The translations under genes and the position numbers were made by a program. A model generated the notes under the pieces. It saw only the letters and a program-made list of their open reading frames with translations, was not told where the DNA came from and did no database searches. From NCBI GenBank assembly GCA_020720425.1, contig DYOP01000001.1:1-32115 (forward strand): 32,115 nucleotides of DNA, in the 5' to 3' direction. The stretch is from Bdellovibrio sp. (GTDB lineage Bacteria; Bdellovibrionota; Bdellovibrionia; Bdellovibrionales; Bdellovibrionaceae). This document shows positions 3,936 to 30,222 of this stretch, piece by piece (position 1 is the stretch's first letter; every line of letters begins with the position of its first letter).

Positions 3936-4637
3936 TTAGAACACCTTTAATATAATATTAATTTGCTCGACCTCGGCATCAACATCGGCATCGACATCAG
4001 CATCATGCTCTTGATACGAAACAAGGTCTTTACTTATAGGGCCAGCCTTAATAAAAAATCGGCCCATCTGATAGGCGCGGTTTATTGACAAAAAAGATTG
4101 GGGATCTTTCCCGCGGGTAGCACTCATTACAATCGGAACATCAATTTGTTTTATAAGTTTGGCCAGCTGATATCCAACAGAAATAAAATTATTTTTAAAT
4201 TCCGAAGACAAATCATTAAATATAATCTGACTTGGCACAATAATAACGATGTCTTTTTGTTGCTGACTTATTTTAATGTTTTTTAAGCTCGGTTCAGACT
4301 GAATTGCCTTTACAATAAAATCATAAATATCAATGGCCTCTACTTTATTAGAAGATGACTTAATTCCGATATCAATAATATCCGTGCCTGCCCCTTTACT
4401 TTGCGATCCTTGTCCTTCCTCGTCACCACCTGTAACCCCAACTCCTGCCATCACTTGAGAGCCAATAAAATGCATTTTTTTTTGAATGCTCTCTTGAAAT
4501 TCTTTTTGTTTTTTTTGGTCACTGTTTGATGTAGCATAAAGAACAACAAAAAAGGCAAAGAGCAAAGTAATAAAATCGGCATAGGATACCAGCCAACGTT
4601 CGTGGCTTTCGCTTTCGTGCTTGAGTTTACGCTTCAT
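3936..4637 (-). CDS. motB: MotB-like flagellar stator protein with a degenerate OmpA domain
   Basis: This is the stator subunit that pairs with MotA to form the ion channel of the flagellar motor. The N-terminus is basic and leads into one TM helix (about residues 14-36) with the family signature SYADFITLLFAFF; Asp21 matches the ion-carrying Asp32 of E. coli MotB. A periplasmic linker rich in Gly and Ser follows (about 60-95). The C-terminal peptidoglycan-binding OmpA-like region is only partly recognisable: LSINRAYQMGRFF (residues about 186-200) fits the NxxLSxxRA block, but the usual TD motif reads TR. The segment where a conserved GxxxP region is expected is replaced by an acidic repeat (DADV-DADV-DAEV, residues 212-223). 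At 233 residues it is short for the family. Its ATG directly abuts the motA stop. The MotB family call is strong; firm cell-wall anchoring is uncertain. Confidence 0.88.
   Translation of the reverse strand: MKRKLKHESESHERWLVSYADFITLLFAFFVVLYATSNSDQKKQKEFQESIQKKMHFIGSQVMAGVGVTGGDEEGQGSQSKGAGTDIIDIGIKSSSNKVEAIDIYDFIVKAIQSEPSLKNIKISQQQKDIVIIVPSQIIFNDLSSEFKNNFISVGYQLAKLIKQIDVPIVMSATRGKDPQSFLSINRAYQMGRFFIKAGPISKDLVSYQEHDADVDADVDAEVEQINIILKVF
3969..4004 (-). repeat. In-frame 12-bp tandem repeat inside motB
   Basis: Three consecutive 12-base units on the minus strand encode DADV, DADV and DAEV (residues 212-223 of the MotB-like protein). The units differ only at third-codon positions plus one Asp/Glu change. 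Gain or loss of a unit would keep the frame and change the length of an acidic stretch near the C-terminus. Confidence 0.7.
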
Positions 4638-5384
4638 TTATTTAAGTTCCAAATAAGAATTCATCTTCATTTCTACTAAAAATGGACTGAGGTCATCTTT
4701 TAAGCCCAAGGCCCCAGCAAGTAACATCTCTTTTTCTGAAACATCTTGTTCGATTATTTTTTTAATTTTATTAGCAAGTGGTAAAAAAAGTAAGTTCGCA
4801 AGTGATACCCCATAAATAGTAGCAACAAAGGCCACCGCAATCCCTGATCCCAATTTTGAAGTATCCGTTAGATTTGCCATAACATGGATTAACCCCAAAA
4901 CGGCGCCAATAATGCCAATGGTGGGCGAAAACCCGCCGGCATCGGTTAATACTTTAACTGCATTGAGTTGCCTTTTTTCAAATTGATCAAGCCTGGCCTC
5001 AAAAGTATCAAGTATCACTTCGCGGCTAGCCCCATCAACTACGGCGCTTAAAATATCTTTAAACCAAATGTCTTTAATCTGAGAAAGTCTTGGCTCAAGA
5101 GTCACCAGGCCCTCTTTTTTTGCCTGCCGAACAAAGGCCAGCATGGTGTTTATATTTTCTGTATTTTGAGTTTTCTGATTAAAAAAAGCTTTTTTAATTA
5201 AGCTCATACACAGGGTAACATCAGACCAATTATTTGATAAAAACACGGCCCCAAGGGTGCCTCCCGCGACAATTAAAAAAGCAGAGCCCTGCAAAAGGCT
5301 TTCAAAATGCCCGCCTTCTATGCTGTTACCCAAAAAAATAGCGCCAAAACCAATAATAAGTCCGAAGATTGAAATTTTATTCAT
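4638..5384 (-). CDS. motA: MotA flagellar motor stator protein
   Basis: This is the four-TM stator subunit that surrounds MotB and couples ion flow to rotor torque. TM1 lies at about residues 5-19, TM2 at 33-50, TM3 at about 152-170 and TM4 at about 181-203. The large cytoplasmic loop (51-150) holds the charged rotor-facing region. The family Pro residues are present in GFSPTIGIIG (Pro154) and LFLPLANK (Pro202), matching the functionally essential Pro173 and Pro222 of E. coli MotA. At 248 residues it is typical of the shorter MotA/PomA types. It is the first gene of motA-motB-RND permease; the stop TAA is directly followed by the motB ATG. The ribosome-binding AAGG lies 7 bp before the ATG and is part of a small hairpin. 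Whether the driving ion is proton or sodium cannot be told from the sequence. Confidence 0.93.
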   Translation of the reverse strand: MNKISIFGLIIGFGAIFLGNSIEGGHFESLLQGSAFLIVAGGTLGAVFLSNNWSDVTLCMSLIKKAFFNQKTQNTENINTMLAFVRQAKKEGLVTLEPRLSQIKDIWFKDILSAVVDGASREVILDTFEARLDQFEKRQLNAVKVLTDAGGFSPTIGIIGAVLGLIHVMANLTDTSKLGSGIAVAFVATIYGVSLANLLFLPLANKIKKIIEQDVSEKEMLLAGALGLKDDLSPFLVEMKMNSYLELK

Positions 5385-5391
5385 TTGATTA

Positions 5392-5415
5392 CCTTAGCTT
5401 GGAGTCAGCCTAAGG
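5392..5415 (-). promoter_or_regulatory. Hairpin covering the motA ribosome-binding site
   Basis: On the minus strand CCTTAG (5415-5410) pairs with CTAAGG (5397-5392), extended by a CT/AG pair across a bulged G, giving about 8 base pairs around a 7-base loop. The AAGG inside the 3' arm is the only plausible Shine-Dalgarno sequence for motA, so the folded form should hide it. The pairing is visible in the sequence; a role in control of translation is inference. Confidence 0.45.
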
Positions 5416-5417
5416 GC

Positions 5418-5584
5418 AAAAAAAAATTCCAGAAAGTACTGAAAGCAATAACCCCAAAGTCTAAGGTGGGTGGCCATGGTAACAACTTTAGGCTTCCCGA
5501 TACTAAGTCGGGCCTGCACACCATCGTCAGGGACAGCCCCCTAAAATAAAGCTTGTCGGGTTATTCTTTTCTGACTTTCTGGAA
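5418..5584 (-). ncRNA. Candidate structured RNA (about 167 nt, 6S-like rod shape)
   Basis: On the minus strand the stretch folds into one long irregular rod. An 11-bp perfect closing stem joins 5584-5574 to 5437-5427 (TTCCAGAAAGT with ACTTTCTGGAA). It continues through a short internal loop into an 8-bp stem, AATAACCC (5565-5558) with GGGTTATT (5454-5447). Further in are a wide bubble, an irregular stem of about 9 pairs, ATGGT/ACCAT, and a terminal AGGC-CCGA hairpin with a 7-base loop at about 5512-5496. The 3' end of the closing stem is followed at once by nine U (5426-5418), as in an intrinsic terminator. A promoter-like pair ends 7 bp before the 5' arm. The size, single-rod shape, central bubble and U-tract recall 6S RNA, but I see no confident sequence match. 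It could instead be a motA leader/attenuator. Confidence 0.55.
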
Positions 5585-5591
5585 CAATTTA

Positions 5592-5619
5592 AGTTTATTC
5601 GTTTTTTAAATGATTTCAA
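5592..5619 (-). promoter_or_regulatory. Sigma70-type promoter for the candidate RNA
   Basis: On the minus strand TTGAAA (5619-5614) and TAAACT (5597-5592) are 16 bp apart, followed by 7 bp to the first paired base at 5584. The -35 box fits 5 of 6 consensus positions and the -10 box 4 of 6. The placement relative to the start of the fold is what makes it persuasive. Confidence 0.4.
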
Positions 5620-5684
5620 TTAAAATTCAAATACCTCGCCTTTTTGATACATAAATTAAAAAAAAAGCTAACTCTAAATACTCT

Positions 5685-7088
5685 TTACTTTTTTACGCTC
5701 ATTAAATGGGCAAGTTGATCCATTTCAATCGAAACAGCTGTGGTTAGCTCGACCGACTCAGAAGAAAACTTTTCAACGCTTGAGGCTACATGGGCAATAT
5801 TTTGCGTTCCTTTATCAATTTCATTAATAGCCATGCTTATTTGAGATATGCCTTGCGATTGTTCCGAGGAGGCAACCGATATTTCTTCGGTTACTGAACT
5901 CAATTTTTCGATATTTCCAAAAATGCTTTTTAACAACTGGCCTGACTCGCTGGCTAGCCCCTGACCGCCTTTGACCAAATCAACCGTTTCTTGAATTAAT
6001 CCACCAATGAGCTTAGCTGATTCCGAAGTTTTTTGAGACAAAGCCCTAACGGCATCAGCAACCACGGCAAACCCTCTGCCCGCTTCACCCGCACGAGCCG
6101 CCTCAACCGAAGCATTAAGAGCTAACAAATTAGTTTGAAAGGCAATATCGTCAATGACCGTCGTGATTTTAGCAATTTCATTAGATGAAGTTGCTATTTT
6201 CATAATAAAACTAAATAAATCATCCATCTTTTTTTCGCCAACTTTAGCGCTTTCCGAGGATTGTCCCGAAAACTGAGCTGCCATTTGTACATTTTCAGCG
6301 TTTCTTTTAACCATCGAAGACAACTCTTCGACAGAGGCGGCAATTTCTTCAACGGCCGCAGCCTGGGCCTCAGCGCCCGAAGCCAGTTGGCCCGAAAGAA
6401 CATTCATTTCTGTCGATTGATCTTTGGTTTTTTGCATACTTATCATGGCCTCATCCATAATTTTTTTAACAATTGAGGTCATACTTTTTAAATATGCAAA
6501 TCCCAATACGAGTGGCAAAACTCCGAGAGCTACAACAAAAATAAGCATTATATTTTGTGTTTTTTGACTGTTGTTTGTTTCGGTAACAAAAGCTTTTTTT
6601 ACATCGCCATCAACCGTAATAATTAATTTGTCTAAATGTTCAAAAGCCTTTTCGGCTAATGGAATTAAATCTGAAATAGCCATGGCAAATGCCGAATTTT
6701 TATCTTTTTTTCTGGCCTCCTGAACGGCCACCCACTTTTCTGAATAGAGATTGACCTCTTTTTTTACCTCATCATAGGGCCCCATACTCGTTTCTAAAAG
6801 CTTATTTACCTCGGCAAAATAACTTTGAGCAATTTCTACTCGAATCATATAGGCTTCATCATCTTGCTCCCCGAGTGCCGCCAAAACATTTGAATTAAAA
6901 AGGCCAAAGTTTTTTAAAATATTTGTGGCCTGCATAACGCTATTTAAGCCATTATTAGCTGTTTCCGTTAATACCGTTGTCGTTTTTTTTGATACAAAAT
7001 AATAAACTCCGCCCATAGCCACTGTTAAAATACTGATAAGCAAAATAAACATAACGGTGGCTTTAGCAAATCCTAACTTTTTAATCAT
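5685..7088 (-). CDS. Methyl-accepting chemotaxis protein without a HAMP domain
   Basis: This is an inner-membrane chemoreceptor. From the start chosen here (467 aa) TM1 covers about residues 10-31, the periplasmic sensing region about 32-178, and TM2 about 179-201. The cytoplasmic coiled-coil signalling domain follows, with the hairpin-tip signature ([19 protein letters not shown], then [17 protein letters not shown]) at about 313-348, which contacts CheA and CheW. TM2 runs almost directly into the signalling helix, leaving no room for the usual HAMP domain of about 50 residues. There is no C-terminal NWETF-type CheR tether; the protein ends MSVKK. The ATG at 7088 is preferred over an upstream ATG at 7127 because TAAGGAG sits 7 bp before it (7102-7096) and the upstream extension is polar and Arg-rich. 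The ligand is unknown. The motAB genes lie downstream on the same strand. Confidence 0.93.
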
Positions 7089-7194
7089 ACAAGTGCTCCT
7101 TACTCTTGATCTAATATGCCACGGCACGACTGAGATTTTAAATCTGAATTTTATTATTAGACTAAGGGCTTGATCGTCGGGGGCTTAATTTTTG

Positions 7195-10772: not shown

Positions 10773-12275
10773 TTATAATCGCGCACTAAGCAGGTGATAT
10801 AGCAATGTATTTAAAAGCCCGATTACCAATATCGTAAAGGCTGAGGCCAAAACAACTGTTTTAGTAAACCATTTTCTATTGTTGTAGACTTCATGATCTT
10901 TAGCGGCCTCTGATATAACTTCATTTTGATCATCATCTTTTATCATATACATATATACAATAGGCTTAAGATATATATAGGCCCCTACAACAGAACCCAG
11001 GCCTGCCCAGAGCGTAAGCCATAAAAGCCCCTGATCTAAGGCTTGTGTGAAAATAAAAAACTTACCAAAAAACCCAAGTGCGGGCGGCACTCCCGCCAGT
11101 GAAATTAAAAGCACTGTAAATGATCCTGCAAGCCAGGGGCGTTTATAGGCCAAGCCTTTTATATGATCTGTGCTAATTTCGTCTGAATATGATTTTTCTA
11201 AAAAACTAACCATAGCCAATGCCCCCATATTCATTATCGAATAGGTGACTAAATAAAACATAACCGCCGTCATGCCAAGTTTTGTGGCTCCTAATCCTAT
11301 TACAATGATACCCATTAAAATATATCCCGAGTGGGCAACGCTCGAAAATGCCAACATTCTTTTTAGATTATTTTGAACAAGGGCTCCGGCGTTACCGGCA
11401 AATATTGTTATAGCGCCTATCCATTGTAAAATATTTAACATCGAATCGTGGTTAACCAAAAAGCTACCTACAAATATTCGGGCAAAAGCCGCAAATGAGG
11501 CCATTTTAACGGCTGTTGACATAAAGGCTGTATGAGGAGTGGGAGCTCCTTGATAAACATCCGCTGTCCATACATGAAATGGAAACAAAGATACTTTAAA
11601 TAAAAATCCGATCATCAAAAAGATCATACCGACAGCAAATAAAGGTGATTGGCCAATTAGCAGATCAGCTTTTTCGGTTAAAACGGTTATAGAAGTTGTG
11701 CCAAGGTTACCATAAATAAAAGCAATTCCCTGAAGCAAAATGGCTGAAGCAAAACTGCCCAAAACAAAATATTTTATGGCGGCTTCTTTAGATAGTTTTT
11801 GCTCATGAGAAATACCAATCATCATATATAAGGCAAGCGACATAACTTCTATTCCAACAAATAGGGTTAATAGGTCTGTCGCCATAACCAGAACCAGCAT
11901 CCCCAACACCGAATTGAGTGTTAAAAACACAAGTTCTGCAAACTGATCCCCATTTGTACTTTGGTTATCTCTCATTAAAAACAATGAGGCCAGGGCCAAA
12001 AGTAAACATGTTGTTGAGGCTATAATGGCAATCCCATCAACGGCAATCAGGTTTGAAAAAGCAAAGGGATTGGCTCTGCTTAGTAAAAGAAAATAAACAG
12101 TTACCATTAGAAGAAGAGCGGCTAGGATTGTGCCAACTCCTTGAATCATTGATAAAAAATTATTTGGTTCTTTGTTTTTATTTAAGACCTTAACAATAAG
12201 AGGTGTTAAAGAGCCCATAAATAATACAAAAAGTGGAGAGGCAACGATAAGATCTGCAGCCGAAGCAAGTAACAT
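10773..12275 (-). CDS. nuoN: NADH-quinone oxidoreductase subunit N
   Basis: This is one of the three antiporter-like, proton-pumping subunits of complex I in the inner membrane. At 500 residues with about 14 hydrophobic segments it matches the family. The conserved core is visible: GIEVMSLALYMMIG (TM5 Glu region, about residue 142), AAIKYFVLGSFASAILLQG, then FKVSLFPFHVWTADVYQGAP (TM7 Lys region, about 226-245), and LKRMLAFSSVAHSGYILMG (about 304-322). It is the last gene of nuoA-H-J-K-L-M-N, starting 11 bp after nuoM, and is followed by the palindromic element at the convergent junction with plsC. Confidence 0.96.
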   Translation of the reverse strand: MLLASAADLIVASPLFVLFMGSLTPLIVKVLNKNKEPNNFLSMIQGVGTILAALLLMVTVYFLLLSRANPFAFSNLIAVDGIAIIASTTCLLLALASLFLMRDNQSTNGDQFAELVFLTLNSVLGMLVLVMATDLLTLFVGIEVMSLALYMMIGISHEQKLSKEAAIKYFVLGSFASAILLQGIAFIYGNLGTTSITVLTEKADLLIGQSPLFAVGMIFLMIGFLFKVSLFPFHVWTADVYQGAPTPHTAFMSTAVKMASFAAFARIFVGSFLVNHDSMLNILQWIGAITIFAGNAGALVQNNLKRMLAFSSVAHSGYILMGIIVIGLGATKLGMTAVMFYLVTYSIMNMGALAMVSFLEKSYSDEISTDHIKGLAYKRPWLAGSFTVLLISLAGVPPALGFFGKFFIFTQALDQGLLWLTLWAGLGSVVGAYIYLKPIVYMYMIKDDDQNEVISEAAKDHEVYNNRKWFTKTVVLASAFTILVIGLLNTLLYHLLSARL

Positions 12276-12286
12276 GAGTCCCCCTG

Positions 12287-13804
12287 TTATTTTTTTACAT
12301 CAAGAGTGTAAGATGATTGATTTTTAACCCAATGCTCTAAACTATGCCTAGAGTAATTTAAAAAGTCATTTGGCCTAAGTCCCATCCAAAAAACAAGCAC
12401 AATGAATGGACTTAAAATGATCCACTCTCTTGCGCTTAGATCAACTAAATGATCTTTGTGCCCAGACAGCTCTTTGCCCGTAGGACCATAAAACACTTTT
12501 TTAACCATCCAAAGCATATAGGCTGCGCCCAACACTACGCCAATAACTGCAAAATAGGCCCAAACAGGATTTGATTTATAGCTACCCATTAAAATCAAAA
12601 ACTCACCAATAAATCCATTCGTCATAGGAACTGCAATCGAAGATAGCGTAATAATTAAAAACGCAATCGTATACCATGGCATAAAGGGAGCTAGGCCCCC
12701 ATAGTGGGCAATTTGCCTTGTGTGGGTTCTCTCATAAATCATTCCCACCAAAAAGAACAAGGCCCCTGTTGAAATTCCATGATTAAGCATTTGATAAAGG
12801 GCTCCGGTAACACCCATTTGATTAAGCGCAAACAAACCCATAAGCACATATCCCATATGAGACACAGACGAATAGGCTACAAGCTTTTTAATGTCGGTTT
12901 GAACTAAAGCCATAAGGGCCCCATAAATTATACCAATCACCCCAATCACCATAAATAGCCAGGCCCAGTATTGAGCCGCCTGCGGAAACAAAGGAATGAC
13001 CCATCTAACAAATCCATAGGTTCCCATTTTTAACATGACGGCGGCAAGTAGCACCGAGCCCGCTGTTGGTGCTTCTACGTGCGCATCTGGTAACCATGTG
13101 TGAACCGGAAAGGCCGGCGTTTTAATAGCAAAGGCTATTGAGAAGGCAAAAAACATAAGCGTTTGAGGGGTCAGAAGCACGCCTCCCACAAATGGAATTT
13201 GCATTTTATACCAATCCAATAAATTGGCTGAATAACTGCCCATAAGCTCTTTATGCATTAAAATTAAATAGATCATGGCCAGTAACATTAAAATAGAGCC
13301 TGCCATAGTATAAATAAAAAATTTAACAGTTGCATAAATCCTTCTGGCCCCGCCCCAGATGCCAATTATAAAATACATAGGGACAAGCGAAAGCTCCCAG
13401 AATAAATAAAATAAGATGGCATCAATAGATAAAAAGGTGCCAATCATTGCCGTTTGAAGCACAAATAGCGAGGCGTAGTAACCTTTTTGGCTTTTATTTA
13501 TCGAGTTCCATGATCCTAAAATAGCTATCGGAAATATAAACACGGTCAGTAAAACAAGCCAAAACGATAAACCATCAACACCAATTGAATAAGATATACC
13601 AAACTGAGAAATCCACGAGTAATTTTCAGTTAATTGTAAGCTCGCTGTTGAGGGGTCAAAGGCCATAAATAATTTAGCACCCAATAACAATTCAGCGAGG
13701 CTTAAACCCAGTGCGGCCTGTTTTAAAAGATCTGATTTGCTGTTAAAAATTAACAGAATAATCGCGGCCAAAAGAGGAAATAAAATAATCTGGCTTAGTA
13801 ACAT
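12287..13804 (-). CDS. nuoM: NADH-quinone oxidoreductase subunit M
   Basis: This is the second antiporter-like proton-pumping subunit of complex I (505 residues, about 14 TM helices). Diagnostic blocks are YSIGVDGLSFWLVLLT near residue 70, FYLFWELSLVPMYFIIGIWG with the TM5 Glu (about 131-150), FAIKTPAFPVHTWLPDAHVE (about 224-243, TM7 Lys), APTAGSVLLAAVMLKMGTYG after it, and DIKKLVAYSSVSHMGYVLMG. It starts 8 bp after the nuoL stop and ends 11 bp before nuoN. Nothing is missing compared with the family. Confidence 0.97.
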   Translation of the reverse strand: MLLSQIILFPLLAAIILLIFNSKSDLLKQAALGLSLAELLLGAKLFMAFDPSTASLQLTENYSWISQFGISYSIGVDGLSFWLVLLTVFIFPIAILGSWNSINKSQKGYYASLFVLQTAMIGTFLSIDAILFYLFWELSLVPMYFIIGIWGGARRIYATVKFFIYTMAGSILMLLAMIYLILMHKELMGSYSANLLDWYKMQIPFVGGVLLTPQTLMFFAFSIAFAIKTPAFPVHTWLPDAHVEAPTAGSVLLAAVMLKMGTYGFVRWVIPLFPQAAQYWAWLFMVIGVIGIIYGALMALVQTDIKKLVAYSSVSHMGYVLMGLFALNQMGVTGALYQMLNHGISTGALFFLVGMIYERTHTRQIAHYGGLAPFMPWYTIAFLIITLSSIAVPMTNGFIGEFLILMGSYKSNPVWAYFAVIGVVLGAAYMLWMVKKVFYGPTGKELSGHKDHLVDLSAREWIILSPFIVLVFWMGLRPNDFLNYSRHSLEHWVKNQSSYTLDVKK

Positions 13805-13812
13805 AGACTCAC

Positions 13813-15771
13813 CTATACCCCAAAGAAAATGGTTAAAATAATAGCAACACCCATAACAATGTATAAAGCATAGGTTTGTATGTTACCGGTTTGCATGGCT
13901 TTACTCATTTTTCCGGTACCAATTGACATATCAGTTAATACGTAAGTTAGCTTATCAATAATACGCACATCCACGTACAACCAAAGGTCTTCGGATGCCT
14001 TAACAAGAGGATTTAAAATATAACGCTGATAAATTTCATCAACATAGTATTTGTTAAACACAAGTTCATAAGCTTGACCTAGTTTTTGAACTAATAATTT
14101 TGGAATTTCAGGTTTTACAATATAAAACACATAAGCCGTTACCGCCGAAAGTAACGCTAAACCAACACTTAATCCCATAAGGCCCCACTCAAGGGCTGCA
14201 TGATCAGCATGGCCCCCATCCACAGCCGTTGCCGCTATCGGATGCACAAGGCTACCCTCAAGCCAATGCTCTAAGACATTCGCAGGGTGGGCTGGTAACA
14301 CCTCTGATATAACATGAGGAATTCCTAACCAACCCCCAACAATAGATAGTACAGCTAGGGCAATCAGGGGTATAAGCATAGAGTAAGGTGACTCATGAGG
14401 GTGGTGGTGCTTTTTATCAAAGCGCTCTTGACCCCAAAAAGTAAGGGCCATAAGGCGAGTCATATAAAAAGAAGTCAGAGTGGCGCCGAGCACCCCGATA
14501 GCCCAAAAAATCCAATGCCCATTTGAGCTTGAAAAACTTTGCCATAATATTTCATCTTTCGAAAAAAATCCGGCAAAAGGCGGCATTCCAATAATGGCAA
14601 GCCAGCCCGCTAAAAATGTAAAATACGTAATTGGTAAATATTTTTTAAGTCCACCCATACGTCTCATGTCCTGCTCATGATGCATTCCATGAATCACTGA
14701 TCCCGATCCTAAAAACATGAGGGCTTTAAAAAAAGCATGGGTCATTAAATGAAATAGAGCGGCCCCAAAAGCCCCCACACCACAGGCCAAAAACATATAC
14801 CCAAGCTGTGAAACAGTTGAATAGGCCAAAACTTTTTTAATATCCCATTGAGCAAGTCCAATGGTGGCAGCAAGCACCACGGTTAATGCCCCAATAATAG
14901 CAATAACCATTAAAGTATAAGGGGCTGCCGCAAATAAAAAGCTCAATCTAACAATCATATAAACACCAGCTGTTACCATTGTGGCAGCATGGATAAGAGC
15001 CGAAACTGGTGTTGGCCCAGCCATAGCATCAGGAAGCCATACATATAACGGAATTTGAGCTGATTTTCCGGTAGCACCAATAAATAACAACAGCGTCCCT
15101 AAAGTTAGAGGGCTGAGCCAAGAAAGTGTTGGGCCGACGGGGACAAGTGAATTAATTTTTTCAAACTCCAGAGTTCCGAAGTGAAAAAACAATATAAACA
15201 TTCCAATAATAAAAGCCGCATCCCCAATTCGATTGGTAATAAAGGCTTTCATGCCTGCGGTTGCTTTTTCTTCGTCGTTAAACCAAAATCCAATCAAAAG
15301 ATAAGAGGCAAGACCTACGCCCTCCCATCCCACAAACATAATTGGCAAACTGTCGCCGGTAACAAGGACCAACATATTAAACAAGAAAAAGTTTAAATAT
15401 GAAAAATATTTAGTAACACCCCTGTCTTCGTGCATATAGCCTATCGAAAACAAATGGATCAAGGTCCCCACACCTGTTACGACTAAAACCATAATGGCAC
15501 TAATCGGATCAACCACAAAGCGAGCTGGTATTTTGAGTTCATCAACGGTTATCCAGTCAAAAAATGTGGCCGAAATGATTCGGGGTCCATCGGCCAATTC
15601 GGTTAATCCAAAAACCAAATAAGCTGCCGAAGCAAATGAGGTCAATGCAAAAAAAGTCGCGATTGCTCCTGAGGTATAACCCCCCCAGCGGCCACGGCCA
15701 AATATTCCGTTAATCAAAAAACCCACTAAGGGTGATAGTAACATAATTGCAATAAAGTATTCGTTTGTCAT
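13813..15771 (-). CDS. nuoL: NADH-quinone oxidoreductase subunit L
   Basis: This is the distal antiporter-like subunit of complex I, which carries the long lateral helix linking the pump units. At 652 residues it is full length. Blocks seen: GYMHEDRGVTKYFSYLNFFLF (about 111-131, split here as one conserved block), MFVGWEGVGLASYLLIGFWF with the TM5 Glu (about 145-164), GKSAQIPLYVWLPDAMAGPT (about 234-253), and DIKKVLAYSTVSQLGYMFLA. A His-rich cytoplasmic stretch (KKHHHPHES, about residue 450) precedes the C-terminal part, which holds the extra helices and the YVDEIYQRYILNPL region. The start is 3 bp after the nuoK stop. Confidence 0.97.
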   Translation of the reverse strand: MTNEYFIAIMLLSPLVGFLINGIFGRGRWGGYTSGAIATFFALTSFASAAYLVFGLTELADGPRIISATFFDWITVDELKIPARFVVDPISAIMVLVVTGVGTLIHLFSIGYMHEDRGVTKYFSYLNFFLFNMLVLVTGDSLPIMFVGWEGVGLASYLLIGFWFNDEEKATAGMKAFITNRIGDAAFIIGMFILFFHFGTLEFEKINSLVPVGPTLSWLSPLTLGTLLLFIGATGKSAQIPLYVWLPDAMAGPTPVSALIHAATMVTAGVYMIVRLSFLFAAAPYTLMVIAIIGALTVVLAATIGLAQWDIKKVLAYSTVSQLGYMFLACGVGAFGAALFHLMTHAFFKALMFLGSGSVIHGMHHEQDMRRMGGLKKYLPITYFTFLAGWLAIIGMPPFAGFFSKDEILWQSFSSSNGHWIFWAIGVLGATLTSFYMTRLMALTFWGQERFDKKHHHPHESPYSMLIPLIALAVLSIVGGWLGIPHVISEVLPAHPANVLEHWLEGSLVHPIAATAVDGGHADHAALEWGLMGLSVGLALLSAVTAYVFYIVKPEIPKLLVQKLGQAYELVFNKYYVDEIYQRYILNPLVKASEDLWLYVDVRIIDKLTYVLTDMSIGTGKMSKAMQTGNIQTYALYIVMGVAIILTIFFGV

Positions 15772-15774
15772 AAG

Positions 15775-16098
15775 TTACCCTTTTAAATGTTCAAAAAAGC
15801 GAATGTTTACTTCTTTAAATCTTTTAAATACGGCTACCACCAAGGCTAAGCCAACTCCTGCCTCTGCCGCCGCAATTGTCATTATAAAAAAAACAATAAT
15901 TTGTCCGTCGAGCTGATTTAAAGAACGCGCATAGGCCACAAAACTTAGGTTAATAGCATTTAACATAAGTTCAATAGACATGAGAACGGTTAAAATATTT
16001 TTTCTTAATAAAACACCTAACATCCCTGTTATAAATAGGATCATAGATAAAACTAAAAAATGGCCTAGTCCTATTTCACTAATCGATTCTGCGAGCAT
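15775..16098 (-). CDS. nuoK: NADH-quinone oxidoreductase subunit K
   Basis: This small three-TM subunit of the complex I membrane arm carries buried Glu residues on the proton path: MSIELMLNAINL (Glu about residue 42) and AAAEAGVGLALVV (Glu about residue 78). The ATG at 16098 gives 107 residues, the normal length, and has an ideal AAGGAGG 5 bp upstream. An in-frame ATG at 16149 would add 17 residues inside nuoJ without support. The gene overlaps the end of nuoJ by 20 bp in another frame. The conserved N-terminal block LGHFLVLSMILFITGMLGVL begins about residue 10. Confidence 0.96.
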   Translation of the reverse strand: MLAESISEIGLGHFLVLSMILFITGMLGVLLRKNILTVLMSIELMLNAINLSFVAYARSLNQLDGQIIVFFIMTIAAAEAGVGLALVVAVFKRFKEVNIRFFEHLKG

Positions 16099-16615
16099 GA
16101 GTGCCTCCTTTAGACCTAGAAAGAGCAACCGCGCCGACTGCCACAACAAGAAGCAGGGCGCCTAAAATTTCAAATATGATTACGTATTGTGTAAAAAGTT
16201 TGTTACCAAGCAATCGTGTGGGCTGCATTCCAAAATCAGCCTGACCTTGAAATTTAATAGCCACGCCCTGGGTTGTTACCATAATCGCACTTAAGATTAA
16301 TCCCGCTAGCACCGCCACTGAGCCGATTTTAAAAACACCGCCCAATGTCCCTTTTGTAAAGGCTTTGATTTCGGATTTAAGGTCAAAGAGCATCATCACC
16401 ATTACAAATAAAACTAATACGGCTCCGGCGTAAACAATCACCTGAACGCCCGCTAAAAAATAGGCGCCTAAAAGCGCAAAAAGGGCAGAAACTCCAATCA
16501 TGGTCATTATTAAACTAAAGGCCGAGTAAATGGGGTTTGGCATAAAAAGCACACCCAGTGCCGAAACAACAGTAACAATTGCTAAAAACCAAAATAAAAA
16601 AACTTCAGCTGTCAC
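16079..16615 (-). CDS. nuoJ: NADH-quinone oxidoreductase subunit J
   Basis: This is a five-TM subunit of the complex I membrane arm next to NuoK and NuoA. The 178 residues include the conserved N-terminal block NPIYSAFSLIMTMIGVSALF (about 27-46) and the pi-bulge helix region QVIVYAGAVLVLFVMVMMLF (about 58-77), which are diagnostic. The C-terminal end (SRSKGGTHARRID) is hydrophilic, and its coding DNA overlaps the nuoK start by 20 bp. It begins 12 bp after nuoH. Confidence 0.96.
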   Translation of the reverse strand: MTAEVFLFWFLAIVTVVSALGVLFMPNPIYSAFSLIMTMIGVSALFALLGAYFLAGVQVIVYAGAVLVLFVMVMMLFDLKSEIKAFTKGTLGGVFKIGSVAVLAGLILSAIMVTTQGVAIKFQGQADFGMQPTRLLGNKLFTQYVIIFEILGALLLVVAVGAVALSRSKGGTHARRID

Positions 16616-16627
16616 GGACGATCCCCC

Positions 16628-17776
16628 CTAATGAATTGCCGCCATTATAACTGCGGTTAAAATAAGATTACCTAAAGCCCATGGTAACATCGTCTTCCAT
16701 CCTAATTCCATAAGTTGATCATATCTAAAGCGCGGAAGACTCCATCTGACGTGTATAAAAATCCATAAAAATATAAATACTTTTATAGAAAAGGCCCCTA
16801 AATGAATAAGCCCCGATAAAACGGCCGTCATATTTTGTGAATCAATAAATCCCGATAAAAATTGAGTCACCTGCTCAGGAGAAACTCCCGGAATAAGGTA
16901 ACCACCAAAATAAAAAATAACCATAAGCGCCGAGGCCACGATCATATGACCATATTCGCCAATAAAAAATAAATTCATTTTTAGTCCGCCGTACTCAGTG
17001 TGAAAACCTGCTACGAGCTCTGACTCCCCCTCGGGTAAGTCAAAGGGCAAACGGTTACTTTCGGCAAAGGCTGCCGCCAAAAACAGAAAAGCTCCTATGG
17101 GCTGATAAAAAATGCCCCAATTAGGTAAAAACGATAATGTCATCGAATAATCGAAAGCCGAAAAAGAAAGGGGGCCATTTTGAGCCGTCACCATTTCGTT
17201 TAAATTAAAGGTTCCAAATATTAAAATAACGCCCAAAATCGCAAGCCCCATGGCTAGCTCATAAGATATAATTTGTGAGCTACCCCGCAAGGCTCCAAAT
17301 AAACTATATTTATTTCCCGATCCCCATCCCGCCATTAATATCGGATAAACGGCTAACGACGAAGCGGCCAAAACAAACAAAATACCTAAACTGGCCTCGT
17401 ACCCTTGTATTGAAAATATATAAGGGCCCCAAGTCTGACCAAAAGCTTCAAACGGAATAATGTTTATAATGGGCCCTAATGGCAAAGCACAAAGCGCCAA
17501 GCTAGCGGGTAACAGGGCAAATACGGGGGCCCCATAAAACATAAACTTAATGGCCTTGGCCGGCACAAACTCTTCTTTAAAAATAAACTTAACGGCATCT
17601 GCGGCGAGTTGGGTTAGCCCTAATGGCCCCACACGGTTTGGCCCTAGGCGATCTTGAATAAAGGCGGCCCCTCTTCTTTCTAGCCATACCAATGACGGAA
17701 CAAGTGAAACCATAACTAAAAAAATTGTTACAAGCTTTAAGGCATTTACTGTTACCTCAAAAATATCGCTACCCAT
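16628..17776 (-). CDS. nuoH: NADH-quinone oxidoreductase subunit H
   Basis: This subunit lines the quinone chamber where the membrane and peripheral arms of complex I meet. With the start chosen here it has 382 residues and about 8-9 TM helices. Diagnostic blocks are LVWLERRGAAFIQDRLGPNR (starting about residue 29), ELAMGLAILGVIL, and ESNRLPFDLPEGESELVAGF followed by HTEYGG (the acidic quinone-site loop). The ATG at 17776 is preferred to the in-frame ATG at 17791 because GGGAG, inside the last codons of nuoA, lies 8 bp before it, while 17791 has no ribosome-binding site. The gene therefore starts 5 bp after the nuoA stop. Confidence 0.95.
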   Translation of the reverse strand: MGSDIFEVTVNALKLVTIFLVMVSLVPSLVWLERRGAAFIQDRLGPNRVGPLGLTQLAADAVKFIFKEEFVPAKAIKFMFYGAPVFALLPASLALCALPLGPIINIIPFEAFGQTWGPYIFSIQGYEASLGILFVLAASSLAVYPILMAGWGSGNKYSLFGALRGSSQIISYELAMGLAILGVILIFGTFNLNEMVTAQNGPLSFSAFDYSMTLSFLPNWGIFYQPIGAFLFLAAAFAESNRLPFDLPEGESELVAGFHTEYGGLKMNLFFIGEYGHMIVASALMVIFYFGGYLIPGVSPEQVTQFLSGFIDSQNMTAVLSGLIHLGAFSIKVFIFLWIFIHVRWSLPRFRYDQLMELGWKTMLPWALGNLILTAVIMAAIH

Positions 17777-17781
17777 ATTGG

Positions 17782-18159
17782 CTACTCCCATTCAAGCGCT
17801 TTTGATTTAATTTCCCACCAAAGACCAAAAATAAAAACACCCATAAAAATTCCCATGGCTCCTAGGCTATAAAGGCCATTTCCTGAGGCAATAAACTCTT
17901 TATAAGTAGCTGCCCATGGGTACATAAAAATAATTTCAATATCAAAAATAATAAACAAAATGGCAGTTAAATAAAATTTGATCGATATTTTTGTGTCCAC
18001 CTTATCTTGTACGGCAATACCGCACTCGTAGGTTTCATCTTTTACTTTATCTTTATAAACTTTTCCTACTTTAGAAGCAGCAAATAAAAGTAAAGCACCA
18101 AAAAGGGTAACAAAAATTGTAATAAAAATTACGGCATAAAGTGGCACACAGCCCCCCAT
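17782..18159 (-). CDS. nuoA: NADH-quinone oxidoreductase subunit A
   Basis: This is a three-TM subunit of the complex I membrane arm near the quinone site and first gene of the nuoAHJKLMN run. The 125 residues include TM1 (about 7-28), the signature YECGIAVQDK (about 44-53; family consensus YECG), FYLTAILFIIFDIEIIFMYPW (TM2, about 62-82) and TM3 (about 96-116). The ATG at 18159 has no clear ribosome-binding site. A GTG four codons in (18147) follows a G-rich stretch and may be the real start, giving a protein beginning PLYAVIF. Confidence 0.94.
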   Translation of the reverse strand: MGGCVPLYAVIFITIFVTLFGALLLFAASKVGKVYKDKVKDETYECGIAVQDKVDTKISIKFYLTAILFIIFDIEIIFMYPWAATYKEFIASGNGLYSLGAMGIFMGVFIFGLWWEIKSKALEWE

Positions 18160-18234: not shown

Positions 18235-21200
18235 ATGGCAAACTCACTTGAACCGCACTTAAATAAAATTATTTTTCGTGAGCTCTCTAGGCGTCACAAC
18301 CAACTTCAAATCACCGGAGTTTCTAGCCTTTTCCCACTTGCTCAGGCTCTTTGTCATACCGAATCGCTTAAGGCTCTTCAAAGCTCTCACCTTGTGGTAA
18401 CACCCAATGAAGATGACGCTAAGCGTTTTATAGACTTCTTAAAATTTGTCGATCCCCATATGCCTTATTCTTATTTACCCCCATGGGATACCTCTTTTTT
18501 TTCTGAGCTTGAGCCCTCTCCCACAATTACTAAACAACGTATTTCTTTTTTATCTTCAGCCAAGGACTCTCCCTACCACCATATTTTTATTACAACCGCA
18601 GCCTCTCTTTCGGAGCCCACTTTACCTTTTTCCATCTTTACTCAGTCCTGTATCAAGCTTAAACCAAACCTCGATTTAGCTCCTGATTTTTATAATCATC
18701 TTTTAAATTTAGGATACTCCGAAGCCCCCTTAGTTGAAGATCACGGCCGCTTTGCTAGGCGCGGAGGGGCCGGTAATATTTTTGATATTGCTTCTCCTCA
18801 GTATCCCAACCCTCTCCGTATTGAGCTTTTCGGAGATCAAATCGAATCAATTCGCTTTTTTGATTTTCAAACCCAGCTTTCTGAAAAAATGACCCAGCCC
18901 GAAGTCATCATAGTCCCCTGCCGCGAAACAATTTATCAAGACGACAAGCTCGGAGAGTTGGTAACCCAGCTTAAACGCATCCAAGCTTCCGATGAAATTA
19001 TTAGGGCCGCCTCACGCAAACAAATTTTTTCAGGGATCGAATACTATTTGCCTTTATTTTATGACAAACCCACCTCGGTGCTTGATCATTTTTCTTGCCC
19101 CCTGACCCTTTGGCTCTACCACCCCAACGAAATCTATATTAACGATGAATCCGTTTTAACTCAGTTAGTAAAAGACAAAACCCAGTCCCCGCTGGGCCTT
19201 GCTCAGCTTGATCCAAGCTTGTTTTATATTCCTTTTTCTCAATCTATAAAGCACCCTTTTGATACCATCATTGAGCTATCAAGTATCGATTTTGACGAGC
19301 TAAGCAGCCAAACCGAAGAATCAATTAAAATTAAATATCCAGCCCACCCCGCCACCGAACTTGTACCTAAAAACCGGGCCGCTTCAATGGGCACACCCCA
19401 ATGGGTTGAAATTATTAGATCTAAATTTTCATCATGGATTGATAATGGCTTTTTTATTTTAGTTGCCATCAGAAATCATACCCAACTTCAAAGATTATCA
19501 ATTTTATTAGAGCCCACCGAATTCCCTATTCATACTATCAACGAAACTCAGGATTCGGTTTATCTTTTTGATCTAAAATCAGACCATATTAATCTTGTCC
19601 ATCGCTTTATCCCCGAAAGCGTTGTGTTACCCCAGCAAAAAATTATTTTATTAAAAGATGAAGATTTTTTTGGCAAAAAAATTGGTCGCTCCACCTCTCA
19701 AACCGACGTTCAGGCTTTCGAACAAAAAGCAGACCTCCTTGCTTTTTCTGATTTAAAAGTGGGCGACTTAGTGGTTCACACCAAGCATGGAATCGGCATT
19801 TTTGATGGTTTAAAAAAAATGAAAGTGGGCGAGCATGACGCCGAATTTGTGCAAATTAACTATAAGGACAATGACAAACTCTACCTACCCGTTACCAGAT
19901 TAAATCAATTGCAACGTTACTCGGGCCCTTCGGCGCATTTACCAATATTAGATCGCTTAGGCGGGCAAAGCTGGGAAAAAACAAAACTTAAAGTTAAAAA
20001 CTCTTTGCGCGATTTAGCGAGCGAACTTTTAAATCTTTATGCTCAAAGAGCCATGGCCACACGACCTGCTTACGCCAGCCACAATGAACGCATTAATCAG
20101 TTTGAACTCGCCTTTCAGTACGAAGAAACCGAAGATCAGCTTAGGGCTATAAAAGAGGTTTCTTCTGATCTTTTTTCAAATAAACCCATGGACCGGCTGA
20201 TTTGCGCCGATGTGGGCTTTGGAAAAACTGAAATCGCTATGCGCGCGGCCTTTATTGCAGCCGATAGCGGCAAACAAGTGGCTTTTATCTGTCCTACGAC
20301 AGTTCTTAGTTTTCAGCATTTTGAAAGCCTCAAGCAACGCTTTAAAGATTGGGAGATTCAGATTGATCAATTTAACCGCTTTACATCTCCCCCTGATGCC
20401 AAGCGCATTTTACAAGATGTGACCAGCGGAAAAGCTCAAATTATTGTGGGTACACATCGACTATTAAGCCAGGATGTTCAATTTAAAAATTTAGGTTTAG
20501 TCATTATTGATGAAGAGCAAAAATTTGGGGTTACCCATAAAGAAAAGCTTAAAAAATTTCGCGCTCATGTTGATACTTTAACTTTATCAGCGACCCCTAT
20601 TCCACGAACTTTAAATTTAAGCCTTATGGGGGTAAGAGATTTATCTTTTATCAACACGCCCCCCACAGATAGGCTCCCCACGCGAACTTTTGTTACCAAA
20701 TGGAATGATGAATTAATAAAAAAGTCTATATTAAGCGAAATCCAAAGAGGAGGTCAGATTTACTTTATACACAACCGTGTACAGAGTCTCTATGAATTGG
20801 CACAAGACTTAAAAAGACTGTTACCCGAAGATTGCCGAATTGGAGTAGCCCATGGCCAACTTCCTGAGCATGAGCTTGAAGATATTATGATCCGATTTTT
20901 TCACCACGAATTAGACGTCCTTGTTTGCACCGCCATTGTCGAATCGGGGATGGATGTTCCGCGGGCCAATACTATGTTTATCGACTTACCTCATTTATTA
21001 GGATTAAGTCAGCTCTATCAGCTCAGAGGGCGAGTTGGCCGCTCTAAAGAAAGGGCTTACTGCTATTTACTGTTACCAAAAAACCGAGAGCTTGATGAAA
21101 ATGCGGCTCAACGGCTTAAAATTATCAAAGAAAACTCAGCCCTAGGCTCTGGCATTCGCATTGCTCAGTACGATCTCGAGCTCAGAGGTTCTGGTAACAT

Positions 21201-21744
21201 ATTGGGCGATGAGCAATCAGGGCACATTAATACTGTAGGCTACGAACTCTATATGGATTTATTAACTCAAACAATTGACGAGCTGAGGGGCTCACCCACA
21301 TCTCACAAGCCCATTGATTGCGAGGTAAATCTTAAAATTCAAGCCCTTATTCCTGATCAATATATTTCTGATATTCGCATTCGCTTGGCCTATTATAAAG
21401 CCTTAAGCCAAGTTACATCTGAAAATGATTTTGATATACTCGAAGCCGAACTCAGTGATCAGTTTGGCCCCCCTCCTCAGGCCGTAATTAACTTACTCGG
21501 AATTTCTCTGATCCGCTGGCACGCCAGTCAATTTGGGGTCTTAGATATCTCTCAAGGTCTTAAAAATATCACCCTTACTTTTTCTGCACAAACGCCCTTA
21601 ACTCCCGATAACGCCATTAAGCTGGCCATGCGATCTAATAAAAAATATCAACTTTTACCTAACAACCGTTTGGTTATTCGCATGAACGAAATTACTTGGC
21701 CCAGGGTCTATGAAGAACTTAATTTATTAATTAAGCAAAGCTAA
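18235..21744 (+). CDS. mfd: Transcription-repair coupling factor Mfd
   Basis: Mfd is an ATP-driven DNA translocase that removes RNA polymerase stalled at lesions and recruits UvrA. At 1169 residues it is full length. The UvrB-like N-terminal region spans roughly residues 1-370 (DHGRFARRGGAGNIFDI at about 167-183). The RNA-polymerase-interacting domain begins near 505 (LKVGDLVVHTKHGIGIFDGL). The helicase motor has Walker A in CADVGFGKTE (about 656-665), DEEQ (about 758-761), and LSATPIPRTL. Lobe 2 has VESGMDVPRANT and QLRGRVGRS, then the TRG-type region. The C-terminal UvrA-inhibiting domain is at about 1010-1169. The ATG at 18235 has no strong ribosome-binding site. It diverges from nuoA across 75 bp. 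No partner genes lie next to it. After the stop, the 150 bp to the next gene has only a weak GCCC/GGGC stem near 21793-21811. Confidence 0.97.
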   Translation: MANSLEPHLNKIIFRELSRRHNQLQITGVSSLFPLAQALCHTESLKALQSSHLVVTPNEDDAKRFIDFLKFVDPHMPYSYLPPWDTSFFSELEPSPTITKQRISFLSSAKDSPYHHIFITTAASLSEPTLPFSIFTQSCIKLKPNLDLAPDFYNHLLNLGYSEAPLVEDHGRFARRGGAGNIFDIASPQYPNPLRIELFGDQIESIRFFDFQTQLSEKMTQPEVIIVPCRETIYQDDKLGELVTQLKRIQASDEIIRAASRKQIFSGIEYYLPLFYDKPTSVLDHFSCPLTLWLYHPNEIYINDESVLTQLVKDKTQSPLGLAQLDPSLFYIPFSQSIKHPFDTIIELSSIDFDELSSQTEESIKIKYPAHPATELVPKNRAASMGTPQWVEIIRSKFSSWIDNGFFILVAIRNHTQLQRLSILLEPTEFPIHTINETQDSVYLFDLKSDHINLVHRFIPESVVLPQQKIILLKDEDFFGKKIGRSTSQTDVQAFEQKADLLAFSDLKVGDLVVHTKHGIGIFDGLKKMKVGEHDAEFVQINYKDNDKLYLPVTRLNQLQRYSGPSAHLPILDRLGGQSWEKTKLKVKNSLRDLASELLNLYAQRAMATRPAYASHNERINQFELAFQYEETEDQLRAIKEVSSDLFSNKPMDRLICADVGFGKTEIAMRAAFIAADSGKQVAFICPTTVLSFQHFESLKQRFKDWEIQIDQFNRFTSPPDAKRILQDVTSGKAQIIVGTHRLLSQDVQFKNLGLVIIDEEQKFGVTHKEKLKKFRAHVDTLTLSATPIPRTLNLSLMGVRDLSFINTPPTDRLPTRTFVTKWNDELIKKSILSEIQRGGQIYFIHNRVQSLYELAQDLKRLLPEDCRIGVAHGQLPEHELEDIMIRFFHHELDVLVCTAIVESGMDVPRANTMFIDLPHLLGLSQLYQLRGRVGRSKERAYCYLLLPKNRELDENAAQRLKIIKENSALGSGIRIAQYDLELRGSGNILGDEQSGHINTVGYELYMDLLTQTIDELRGSPTSHKPIDCEVNLKIQALIPDQYISDIRIRLAYYKALSQVTSENDFDILEAELSDQFGPPPQAVINLLGISLIRWHASQFGVLDISQGLKNITLTFSAQTPLTPDNAIKLAMRSNKKYQLLPNNRLVIRMNEITWPRVYEELNLLIKQS

Positions 21745-23340: not shown

Positions 23341-24744
<1,404 letters not shown>

Positions 24745-24761
24745 TTACTCTCCCCTTTTCT

Positions 24762-25679
24762 TTATAGCGCCTCAGCGCCGCTGACGATTTCAGTTAATTC
24801 AGTTGTAATTTTTTCTTGTCTTATTTTGTTATATGTCAGAGTGAGCTTAGAAATAACATCTCTAGCATTATTGGTTGCATTTTCCATTGCCGTCATTCGG
24901 GCCCCATGCTCGGCCGCCACGCTTTCAGCCAAATACCTAAATATCTGAACAACAATATGCTTTTCAATTAATTCATTTAAAATTAGCTCCGATGCGGGCT
25001 CAAATATAAACTGTCTCGCCTCAGGCGTTACCAAATTAAGCTCTTTTGATATACCTTCTTGTACATGAGCTTTATGAGTTATGGGTAACAGCTGTTCACA
25101 ATTTACTTTTTGCGAGATGGCCGATTTGAATTCATTAAATACAAATTTAATTTCTTGATAGTTTCCGCTCGTAAAATACTCAGTTAGCTTGCTCCCTAAT
25201 TGAGTTGCTAAATTATATGATATGTCTTTGTCTAAACGGTAAATTACCTCAACGGCCTCAGCACCCCTTCTGGCAAAATATTCTGCACCTTTTTTGCCAA
25301 CAATAAACACATCTATCTTGTCGTATTGAGTTTTATTTTCTTCAATAAAAGCTTCTGAAAATTTTATAACTTGGCCATTAAAGCCCCCACATAAACCTCG
25401 ATCCGAAGTTAATATAACGAGCAAAAGATTTTTAGCCTCTGAACTATTTAACTCTACTTGTTCACCCAAAGACCCCTTTATAAGGGGATGCTTTACGCTA
25501 TCAGCTTTAACTAAATTTTGAATCACATACATTAAACCCTGAGCATAAGGCCTCATGCTCACAATTTGTTGTTGCGCTTTTCTTAGCTTGGCTGCGGCAA
25601 CTAATTTCATAGCCTTTGTAATTTGCTGTGTATTTTTAGTTGCATCAATCCGGGTGCGTATATCCTTTAAGCTTGGCAT
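24762..25679 (-). CDS. atpG: ATP synthase F1 subunit gamma
   Basis: This is the rotating central shaft of F1. The 305 residues show the N-terminal coiled-coil helix (MPSLKDIRTRIDATKNTQQI, then TKAMKLVAAAKLRKAQ) and the C-terminal helix (ARMTAMENATNNARDVI near 261-277, LTLTYNKIRQEKITTELTEI near 280-299) that inserts into the alpha/beta ring, with the Rossmann-like part between, including LTSDRGLCGGFN (about 88-99). The ATG follows AAGGG and starts 8 bp after the atpA stop. Confidence 0.97.
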   Translation of the reverse strand: MPSLKDIRTRIDATKNTQQITKAMKLVAAAKLRKAQQQIVSMRPYAQGLMYVIQNLVKADSVKHPLIKGSLGEQVELNSSEAKNLLLVILTSDRGLCGGFNGQVIKFSEAFIEENKTQYDKIDVFIVGKKGAEYFARRGAEAVEVIYRLDKDISYNLATQLGSKLTEYFTSGNYQEIKFVFNEFKSAISQKVNCEQLLPITHKAHVQEGISKELNLVTPEARQFIFEPASELILNELIEKHIVVQIFRYLAESVAAEHGARMTAMENATNNARDVISKLTLTYNKIRQEKITTELTEIVSGAEAL

Positions 25680-25687
25680 ATCATCCC

Positions 25688-27208
25688 TTAGACTTGTGGT
25701 TTAAAAATAACTGAAAACTCATCTGCTGCGGCTTTTAGCGATGCTTTAATTTCATCTGTTACCGCTTTTTTCTCGGCAATATTTTTTAAGACATGGCTAT
25801 GTTTATTTTTTAGAAACTCAATAAATTGTTTTTCAAAAGCTGACACTTGATTTTCGGCAACAGCATCTAAATATCCATTTGTTGCAATCCATACGCTCAC
25901 CACTTGATCCTCTACGGCAAATGGAGCATACAAACCCTGTTTAAGTAACTCAACAAGTCTTCGGCCTCTTGATAATTGTTTTTGTGACGCCGAATCTAGA
26001 TCTGATGCAAAAGCAGCAAAGGCTTCAAGCGCTCTAAACTGGGCAAGCTCTAGCTTGAGAGTTCCTGCTACCTGTTTCATCGCTTTTATTTGAGCCGCGC
26101 CTCCGACCCTTGATACCGATTTACCAACATCAATGGCGGGTCTTATCCCTTTATAAAACAAGTCTGTTACCAAGAAAATCTGCCCATCCGTAATTGAAAT
26201 CACGTTAGTCGGAATATAGGCCGAAATATCTCCCGCTTGCGTTTCGATAATGGGCAATGCAGTTAACGACCCCCCCCCTTTATCGTCTGACATTTTTGCT
26301 GCTCGCTCTAAAAGTCTTGAGTGAAGATAAAAAATATCTCCGGGGTAGGCTTCACGTCCTGGCGGCCTTCTGAGTAACAATGACATCTGCCTATAGGCTT
26401 GAGCTTGTTTAGTTAAATCGTCATATACAACAAGAGAGTGGCCGCCATTATCTCTAAAGTATTCGGCCATAGCTGTGCCTGAGTAAGGGGCTATAAATTG
26501 CAAGGGGGCCGCGTCAGAAGCGCTGGCGACAATCACCGTTGTATAATCCATCGCGCCCGCTTGTCTTAGCTTTTCAACAACAAGAGCCACGGTCGATTGC
26601 TTTTGTCCAATAGCCACATAAAAACACTGAACTCCCTGACCCTTTTGATTTATAATAGTATCAATGGCAACTGACGTTTTACCGGTTTGGCGATCACCAA
26701 TAATTAATTCCCTTTGACCCCGGCCAATCGGAATCATGGTATCTATGGCTTTAATCCCTGTTTGAAGAGGCTGATGCACAGGCTGTCTATACACAATGCC
26801 CGGGGCTTTAAGCTCCATTTTACGATATTCTTTAGCCTGAATGGGGCCAAGTCCATCAATGGGTAACCCTAAGGCGTTAACCACACGGCCCAGCAGAGCT
26901 TCTCCCGCAGGAACTTCCACAATTTTTTTAGTTCTTTTGACCGAATCGCCTTCTTTAATTTTTCTATCATCTCCAAAAATCACAGCCCCAACGGTTGTAT
27001 CTTCTAGGTTTAAAATCATACCTACAACGCCCGATGAAAACTCGATCAGCTCACCACTCATTACATTTTCTAGTCCGTAAATGCGCGCAACACCATCACC
27101 AACAGCTAATACGTTACCCGTTTCAGCTGTTTCTACCTGTTTTTCATAGCCTTCAATTTTTTCTTTTAATATTCTACTGATCTCATCGACTTTAATTTGC
27201 ATATCCAT
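25688..27208 (-). CDS. atpA: ATP synthase F1 subunit alpha
   Basis: This is the non-catalytic nucleotide-binding subunit of the F1 head. The 506 residues include the N-terminal crown ([16 protein letters not shown], about 31-46), Walker [14 protein letters not shown] (about 170-182), [16 protein letters not shown] (about 287-302) and the [20 protein letters not shown] block (about 374-393). The ATG follows an AAAGGAG ribosome-binding site. A second in-frame ATG two codons in is possible but less well placed. It starts 27 bp after atpH. Confidence 0.98.
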
Positions 27209-29280: not shown

Positions 29281-30222
29281 TTATTTAAGCAATCTCTCTG
29301 CTATTTCATTAAGCTGTTCAAGCTGATAAAATTGGATACTCAGGCTTCCGCGCCCGCCTGATGAGTACTCAATTTTTACCTTTGTGCTTAATTTTTTTTG
29401 AAGACTATCCGTCAGGGCTTGATAGGCTTGGATACTCACGTCGCTTTTAATTTCATCATTTTGCTGCCCATCCGCTTCGTCCTGCTTTTGCTTAATCAGC
29501 GTTTCAAGCTTTCTTACTGATAACTTATCCTTTGCGCAACGCATAGCCAATTTTTTTTGTAACTTTTCATCGCTTACGCCAAGTAACACTTTGGCATGGC
29601 CCGTCGTGATTTCTTTACTTTTAAGAAGATCTCTAACGTCATAGCCTAGGTTAAGTAATCTCATTGAATTAGCTACTGTTGCCCTGTCCTTTCCGACCTT
29701 ATCAGCAATTTGTTGCTGGCTAAGTTCAAATTGAATGGATAATTTTTGATAGGCTTCGGCTTCTTCTATGGGGTTAAGGTCTTCCCTTTGTATGTTTTCA
29801 ATTAATGCTAGCTCAAGGGTTTCTAAATCATCGTATTCTTTAATAATAATGGGCACCGTATGGAGCCCCGCCACCTGAGCGGCTCGCCAACGCCTTTCTC
29901 CGGCAATAATTTCAAATCGTGAACCCTGTTTGCGAGCCACAATGGGTTGCAAAATTCCTTTTTCTTTGATCGATTTTGCGAGTTCATTAATTTTTTCTTT
30001 ATCAAACTCTTGTCTTGGCTGAAATGGCGAAGGGGCAAGCTTTTCGATATCGATATTCCAAATTCTAAGCTTCTCTGGCGTCGTGTCCACAGGCTGATTT
30101 TTGACATCATTTGCTTGGCCCAACTGGTAACCTATACCCTCATTTGCCCCACCCAACAAGGAGCCAATTCCGCGGCCAAGACTCTTTTTTTTGTTTGGAG
30201 TTTCATCATTTATATTAATCAT
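29281..30222 (-). CDS. parB: Chromosome-partitioning protein ParB
   Basis: ParB is the CTP-dependent DNA clamp that loads at parS and spreads to segregate the origin region. The 313 residues have the N-terminal ParA-activating motif LGRGIGSLLGG (15-25), the CTP-binding/ParB-N domain (about 53-150) with GERRWRAAQVAG (108-119) and ENIQREDLNPIEEAEAY (142-158), and a helix-turn-helix region for parS (SQQQIADKVGKDRATVANSM, about 168-187). A C-terminal dimerisation domain is at about 265-313. The ATG immediately follows the parA stop (TAA then ATG), with GGAG 6 bp before it. This is the chromosomal type, not the plasmid type. Confidence 0.97.
   Translation of the reverse strand: MININDETPNKKKSLGRGIGSLLGGANEGIGYQLGQANDVKNQPVDTTPEKLRIWNIDIEKLAPSPFQPRQEFDKEKINELAKSIKEKGILQPIVARKQGSRFEIIAGERRWRAAQVAGLHTVPIIIKEYDDLETLELALIENIQREDLNPIEEAEAYQKLSIQFELSQQQIADKVGKDRATVANSMRLLNLGYDVRDLLKSKEITTGHAKVLLGVSDEKLQKKLAMRCAKDKLSVRKLETLIKQKQDEADGQQNDEIKSDVSIQAYQALTDSLQKKLSTKVKIEYSSGGRGSLSIQFYQLEQLNEIAERLLK

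Follow-up and report, generated by a model that had tools for sequence, protein, structure and literature searches.

A single-copy 6S RNA gene (ssrS) between mcp and motA in a Bdellovibrio relative

The minus strand at positions 5588-5422 of the DNA analysed here, a stretch of 32,115 nucleotides from Bdellovibrio sp. (the window), carries a normal single-copy 6S RNA gene (ssrS) of a Bdellovibrio relative. Our explanation as a whole, which we hold to be nearly certain, is that of a single ssrS gene producing a 6S RNA of about 165 nt from its own promoter, with its end at a U-tract, that would act as an open-promoter mimic with pRNA-driven release. Family membership, structure, covariation and the conserved copy number, promoter and U-tract constitute the demonstrated part of this explanation. 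The RNA is of an already known kind, namely an ordinary member of the 6S family whose closing stem is somewhat short. The features of the locus and its neighbouring genes are detailed in Table 1.

Table 1. Features of the 6S RNA locus and adjoining genes, in window coordinates
Feature	Position	Strand	Evidence
motB	3936-4637	-	
motA, neighbour outside the RNA gene	4638-5384	-	Pfam MotA_ExbB, 4.7e-27
Run of nine U 3' of the closing stem, presumed terminator tail	5418-5426	-	Sequence; U runs in relatives
6S RNA (ssrS), full-length RF00013 match	5422-5588	-	cmscan, 72.2 bits (gathering 46.4), model 1-187
Closing stem, 3' arm ACTTTCTGGAA	5427-5437	-	Sequence, fold, covariation (helix 1)
Inner stem, 3' arm GGGTTATT (also given as GGGUUAUU)	5447-5454	-	Sequence; helix 2 in covariation analysis
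Central bubble, 5' side GACAAGCUUUAUUUUA, with putative pRNA start template C at 5555	5542-5557	-	Consensus structure, Rfam alignment
Putative pRNA 5'-GUCGGGUUAUUCUUUU, template 6S RNA	5555-5570	+	Bubble position, homology to E. coli 6S
Inner stem, 5' arm AATAACCC (also given as AAUAACCC)	5558-5565	-	Sequence; helix 2 in covariation analysis
Closing stem, 5' arm TTCCAGAAAGT	5574-5584	-	Sequence, fold, covariation (helix 1)
Sigma-70-like promoter TTGAAA-16-TAAACT	5592-5619	-	Scan, 9 of 12; similar elements at similar distance in relatives
Methyl-accepting chemotaxis protein (mcp), neighbour outside the RNA gene	5685-7127	-	Pfam MCPsignal, 2.8e-44

Family assignment and structure of the RNA

The entire window was compared with all 4227 Rfam families using cmscan under the curators' thresholds; an earlier reading of the sequence alone had recommended such a scan for 5400-5620. 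Only the 6S/SsrS family (RF00013) passed its gathering score: the match reaches 72.2 bits where 46.4 are required (window-wide E = 1.3e-12) and spans the full length of the model, from position 1 to position 187. In the alignment to the Rfam consensus, the conserved 6S blocks GGUGUGCA, CGGGAAGCCUAAA and CACCCACCU are retained, and the window RNA is about 20 consensus positions short of the model, mostly in the closing-stem part. A low-scoring match to the SAM-V riboswitch (RF01826) at 5595-5645, with 19.9 bits against a gathering score of 41 and E = 0.59, was rejected as chance.

The structural elements described in that sequence-only reading are all present: the two arms of the closing stem pair perfectly over 11 bp, those of the inner stem pair over 8 bp, and a wide bubble follows, and then an inner rod with a terminal hairpin. 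Both the minimum-energy fold and the consensus fold contain the closing stem, the single-stranded central bubble and the terminal stem-loop characteristic of 6S RNA. The rod has a fold energy of -60.3 kcal/mol, compared with a shuffle mean of -45.3 (sd 4.34), which corresponds to z = -3.47, and one of 200 shuffles folds as well. A hairpin in the 3' arm, known from some 6S RNAs once the pRNA has been made, was weak (mean z about -0.6), and a conserved 3'-arm refolding hairpin was rejected as not clearly above shuffles.

Covariation in homologues, likewise proposed in advance as a test, reveals that the stems are kept by compensatory change. Among 11 close relatives, the 50-pair structure comprises 97.1% paired cells, and double-sided changes occur at 10 pairs and in 22 cells, against shuffle means of 4.0 and 5.9, respectively, with none of 500 shuffles reaching either count. 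When the partners were slid by 1-3 columns, pairing fell to 38-52%, a control that is flattering because the structure was derived from the same alignment. Both the shuffle control and the Rfam model are consistent with the structure obtained from this alignment. The inner stem (helix 2) is nearly invariant in the closest relatives and contributes little covariation. Across the order, the core alone has double changes at 13 of its 24 pairs in 57 sequences; the outer stem varies too much for a sequence-based alignment of this set. Members of the same family carry at least two sequence types of the outer stem: one (...CUCAGGAAGUGUAAGAAAAAUAACCC) is found in the window's clade, and the other (GGUUCGACGGCGUAAAGCUCAUCGAAAAUAAACC) is longer. 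The core is nearly invariant.

Distribution of the gene and its expression signals

The window's own genome (2.6 Mb, 99.4% complete) contains one 6S copy and no second one. Exactly one 6S gene above the cut-off was found in 59 of 60 related genomes from the same family and order, representing 40 of 41 genera, and the sole relative without a hit is a 72% complete genome. The gene is free-standing, held in one copy and widely conserved among these relatives. The loci compared number 59, the window's own included; in genome G036, the 6S gene (L002) is located at C1:182914-183093 on the minus strand.

The promoter-like element that had been placed 7 bp upstream of the 5' arm is indeed there, with a -10-like TAAACT at 5597-5592. 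Its score of 9 of 12 proves nothing alone, because a 400-base stretch should hold 0.9 such sites by chance; the promoter is nevertheless supported because the same arrangement recurs in relatives. Scores of at least 9 of 12 were obtained upstream of 53% of the 6S copies, compared with 8% of mononucleotide-shuffled upstreams. At the other end of the gene, nine U directly follow the 3' arm of the closing stem, as previously described, and a run of at least five U is found at the 3' end of 54 of the 59 loci, versus 7% of random 20-base stretches. A simple terminator scan detected no classical short terminator hairpin, and the U-tract adjoins the long closing stem instead.

Alternative readings and the motA neighbourhood

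The leading guess of the sequence-only reading was a free small RNA, possibly a diverged 6S RNA. The full-length Rfam match, the presence of the gene in single copy throughout the family and order, and the covariation bear this guess out. The other proposal of that reading, a lineage-specific small RNA resembling 6S RNA merely in its rod shape, is contradicted by the Rfam match and the distribution. The shortened outer stem would suit such an RNA, and a rod with a bubble is by itself unspecific, but the match rests on the three conserved sequence blocks and not on shape alone, its score is well over the gathering cut-off, and the genome, which is 99.4% complete, contains no other 6S candidate, just as the relatives contain no 6S hits other than its counterparts. 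We consider the probability that the RNA is lineage-specific in this sense to be negligible.

The location between mcp and motA, as originally described, was confirmed by the Pfam matches of both neighbours, and the minus-strand order is mcp, 6S, motA, motB. The start of motA lies on the same strand, 37 nt downstream of the 6S 3' end (window 5384-5422), a distance that would fit a structured, cis-regulatory 5' leader of motA in place of a free RNA, or a 6S RNA with regulated read-through into motA. The same order, 6S-motA-motB, occurs with an 86-nt gap in a distant relative (G015, locus L008), which also favours these alternatives; however, recognisable motA/motB homologues adjoin the 6S gene only in the window and in G015 among the 59 loci, within flanks of about 1.5 kb and at the sensitivity of tblastn. 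Relatives keep the RNA without an adjacent motA, it ends in a U-tract, and the gene neighbours of 6S vary among relatives. A MotA-based search for related loci returned only two, in Bdellovibrionales / Pseudobdellovibrionaceae MAGs. In addition, a hairpin over the motA ribosome-binding region (5376-5428) is no better than shuffles (z = -0.4), and the neighbourhood of the 59 loci gives no sign of the RNA serving motA. The motA leader was rejected because the neighbourhood is not conserved, and a leader or regulated read-through is, taken together, very improbable. The adjacency to motA is a local accident, common to one relative only.

A further idea is that leaky termination after the 6S gene feeds motA-motB expression in this lineage and couples 6S transcription to motility, which we regard as unlikely. 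The proximity of 6S and motA and the order common to G015 leave room for read-through; nothing else supports it. Elsewhere, the window carries housekeeping genes at 10773-31023, including those for NADH dehydrogenase subunits (10773-17791), an mfd-like repair factor (18235-21744), F-type ATP synthase subunits (23341-27208) and parB/parA (29281-31023).

Proposed function and comparison with known systems

Having been identified as a 6S RNA, the window RNA most likely works as other 6S RNAs do, and polymerase binding, pRNA synthesis and a physiological role in the window's bacterium would be expected from its family. The gene would be transcribed from its own sigma-70-type promoter, and the RNA would end at the U-tract 3' of the closing stem. 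The resulting long rod, with its central bubble, would mimic DNA melted at a promoter and would bind the RNA polymerase holoenzyme carrying the housekeeping sigma, depriving ordinary promoters of it when nutrients are short. Once nucleotides are back, the polymerase would copy the bubble, starting a short pRNA (GUCGGGUUAUUC...) opposite the C at 5555, and this pRNA would open the flanking stems and release the enzyme.

The base aligned with the E. coli pRNA start, which we take to be U44, is the C at 5555, a template for an initiating G, and therefore the pRNA would begin with GUCGGGUUAUUC. A C occupies this position in 50 of the 58 sequences scored. Co-folding in a thermodynamic model that ignores the polymerase is suggestive of pRNA-driven opening, as a pRNA of 16 nt opens the outer stems and one of 14 nt does not. 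The general mechanism is established for 6S RNA (Barrick et al. 2005, cited in PMC10406553): the bubble resembles an open promoter and captures the holoenzyme, and pRNA synthesis frees it.

The attack/growth transcriptome of B. bacteriovorus includes eight attack-phase-specific small RNAs, and 6S RNA is not named in the main text of that paper (PMC3627812). If genome G036 is that of B. bacteriovorus HD100, its 6S gene is absent from those eight. The two papers that a literature search returned for 6S RNA together with Bdellovibrio use each term only once or twice. Our result is a routine 6S annotation in a lineage of predatory bacteria, for which the alignment of 57 homologues fixes the 6S structure. 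It is reasonable to ask whether 6S RNA has a role when Bdellovibrio-like predators switch between attack and growth.

Among known systems, the Ms1 RNA of Actinobacteria has the same general shape and is a 6S-like RNA that binds core polymerase (PMC9130861); the window RNA differs from it in that RF00013 is the only Rfam family whose gathering score is reached. With the 58 other loci of Bdellovibrio-like genomes, it shares the core, the nearly invariant blocks, the promoter-like element and the U-tract, whereas the outer stem varies by sub-lineage and the gene neighbours vary. Compared with the RF00013 model, the window RNA is shorter, with about 167 nt against 187 positions, and the deficit falls mostly in the closing-stem part. 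It resembles the 6S RNA (SsrS) of Escherichia coli and other Proteobacteria in its full-length covariance match and conserved sequence blocks, in its succession of closing stem, central bubble and terminal stem-loop, and in having its own promoter, a U-tract and one copy per genome.
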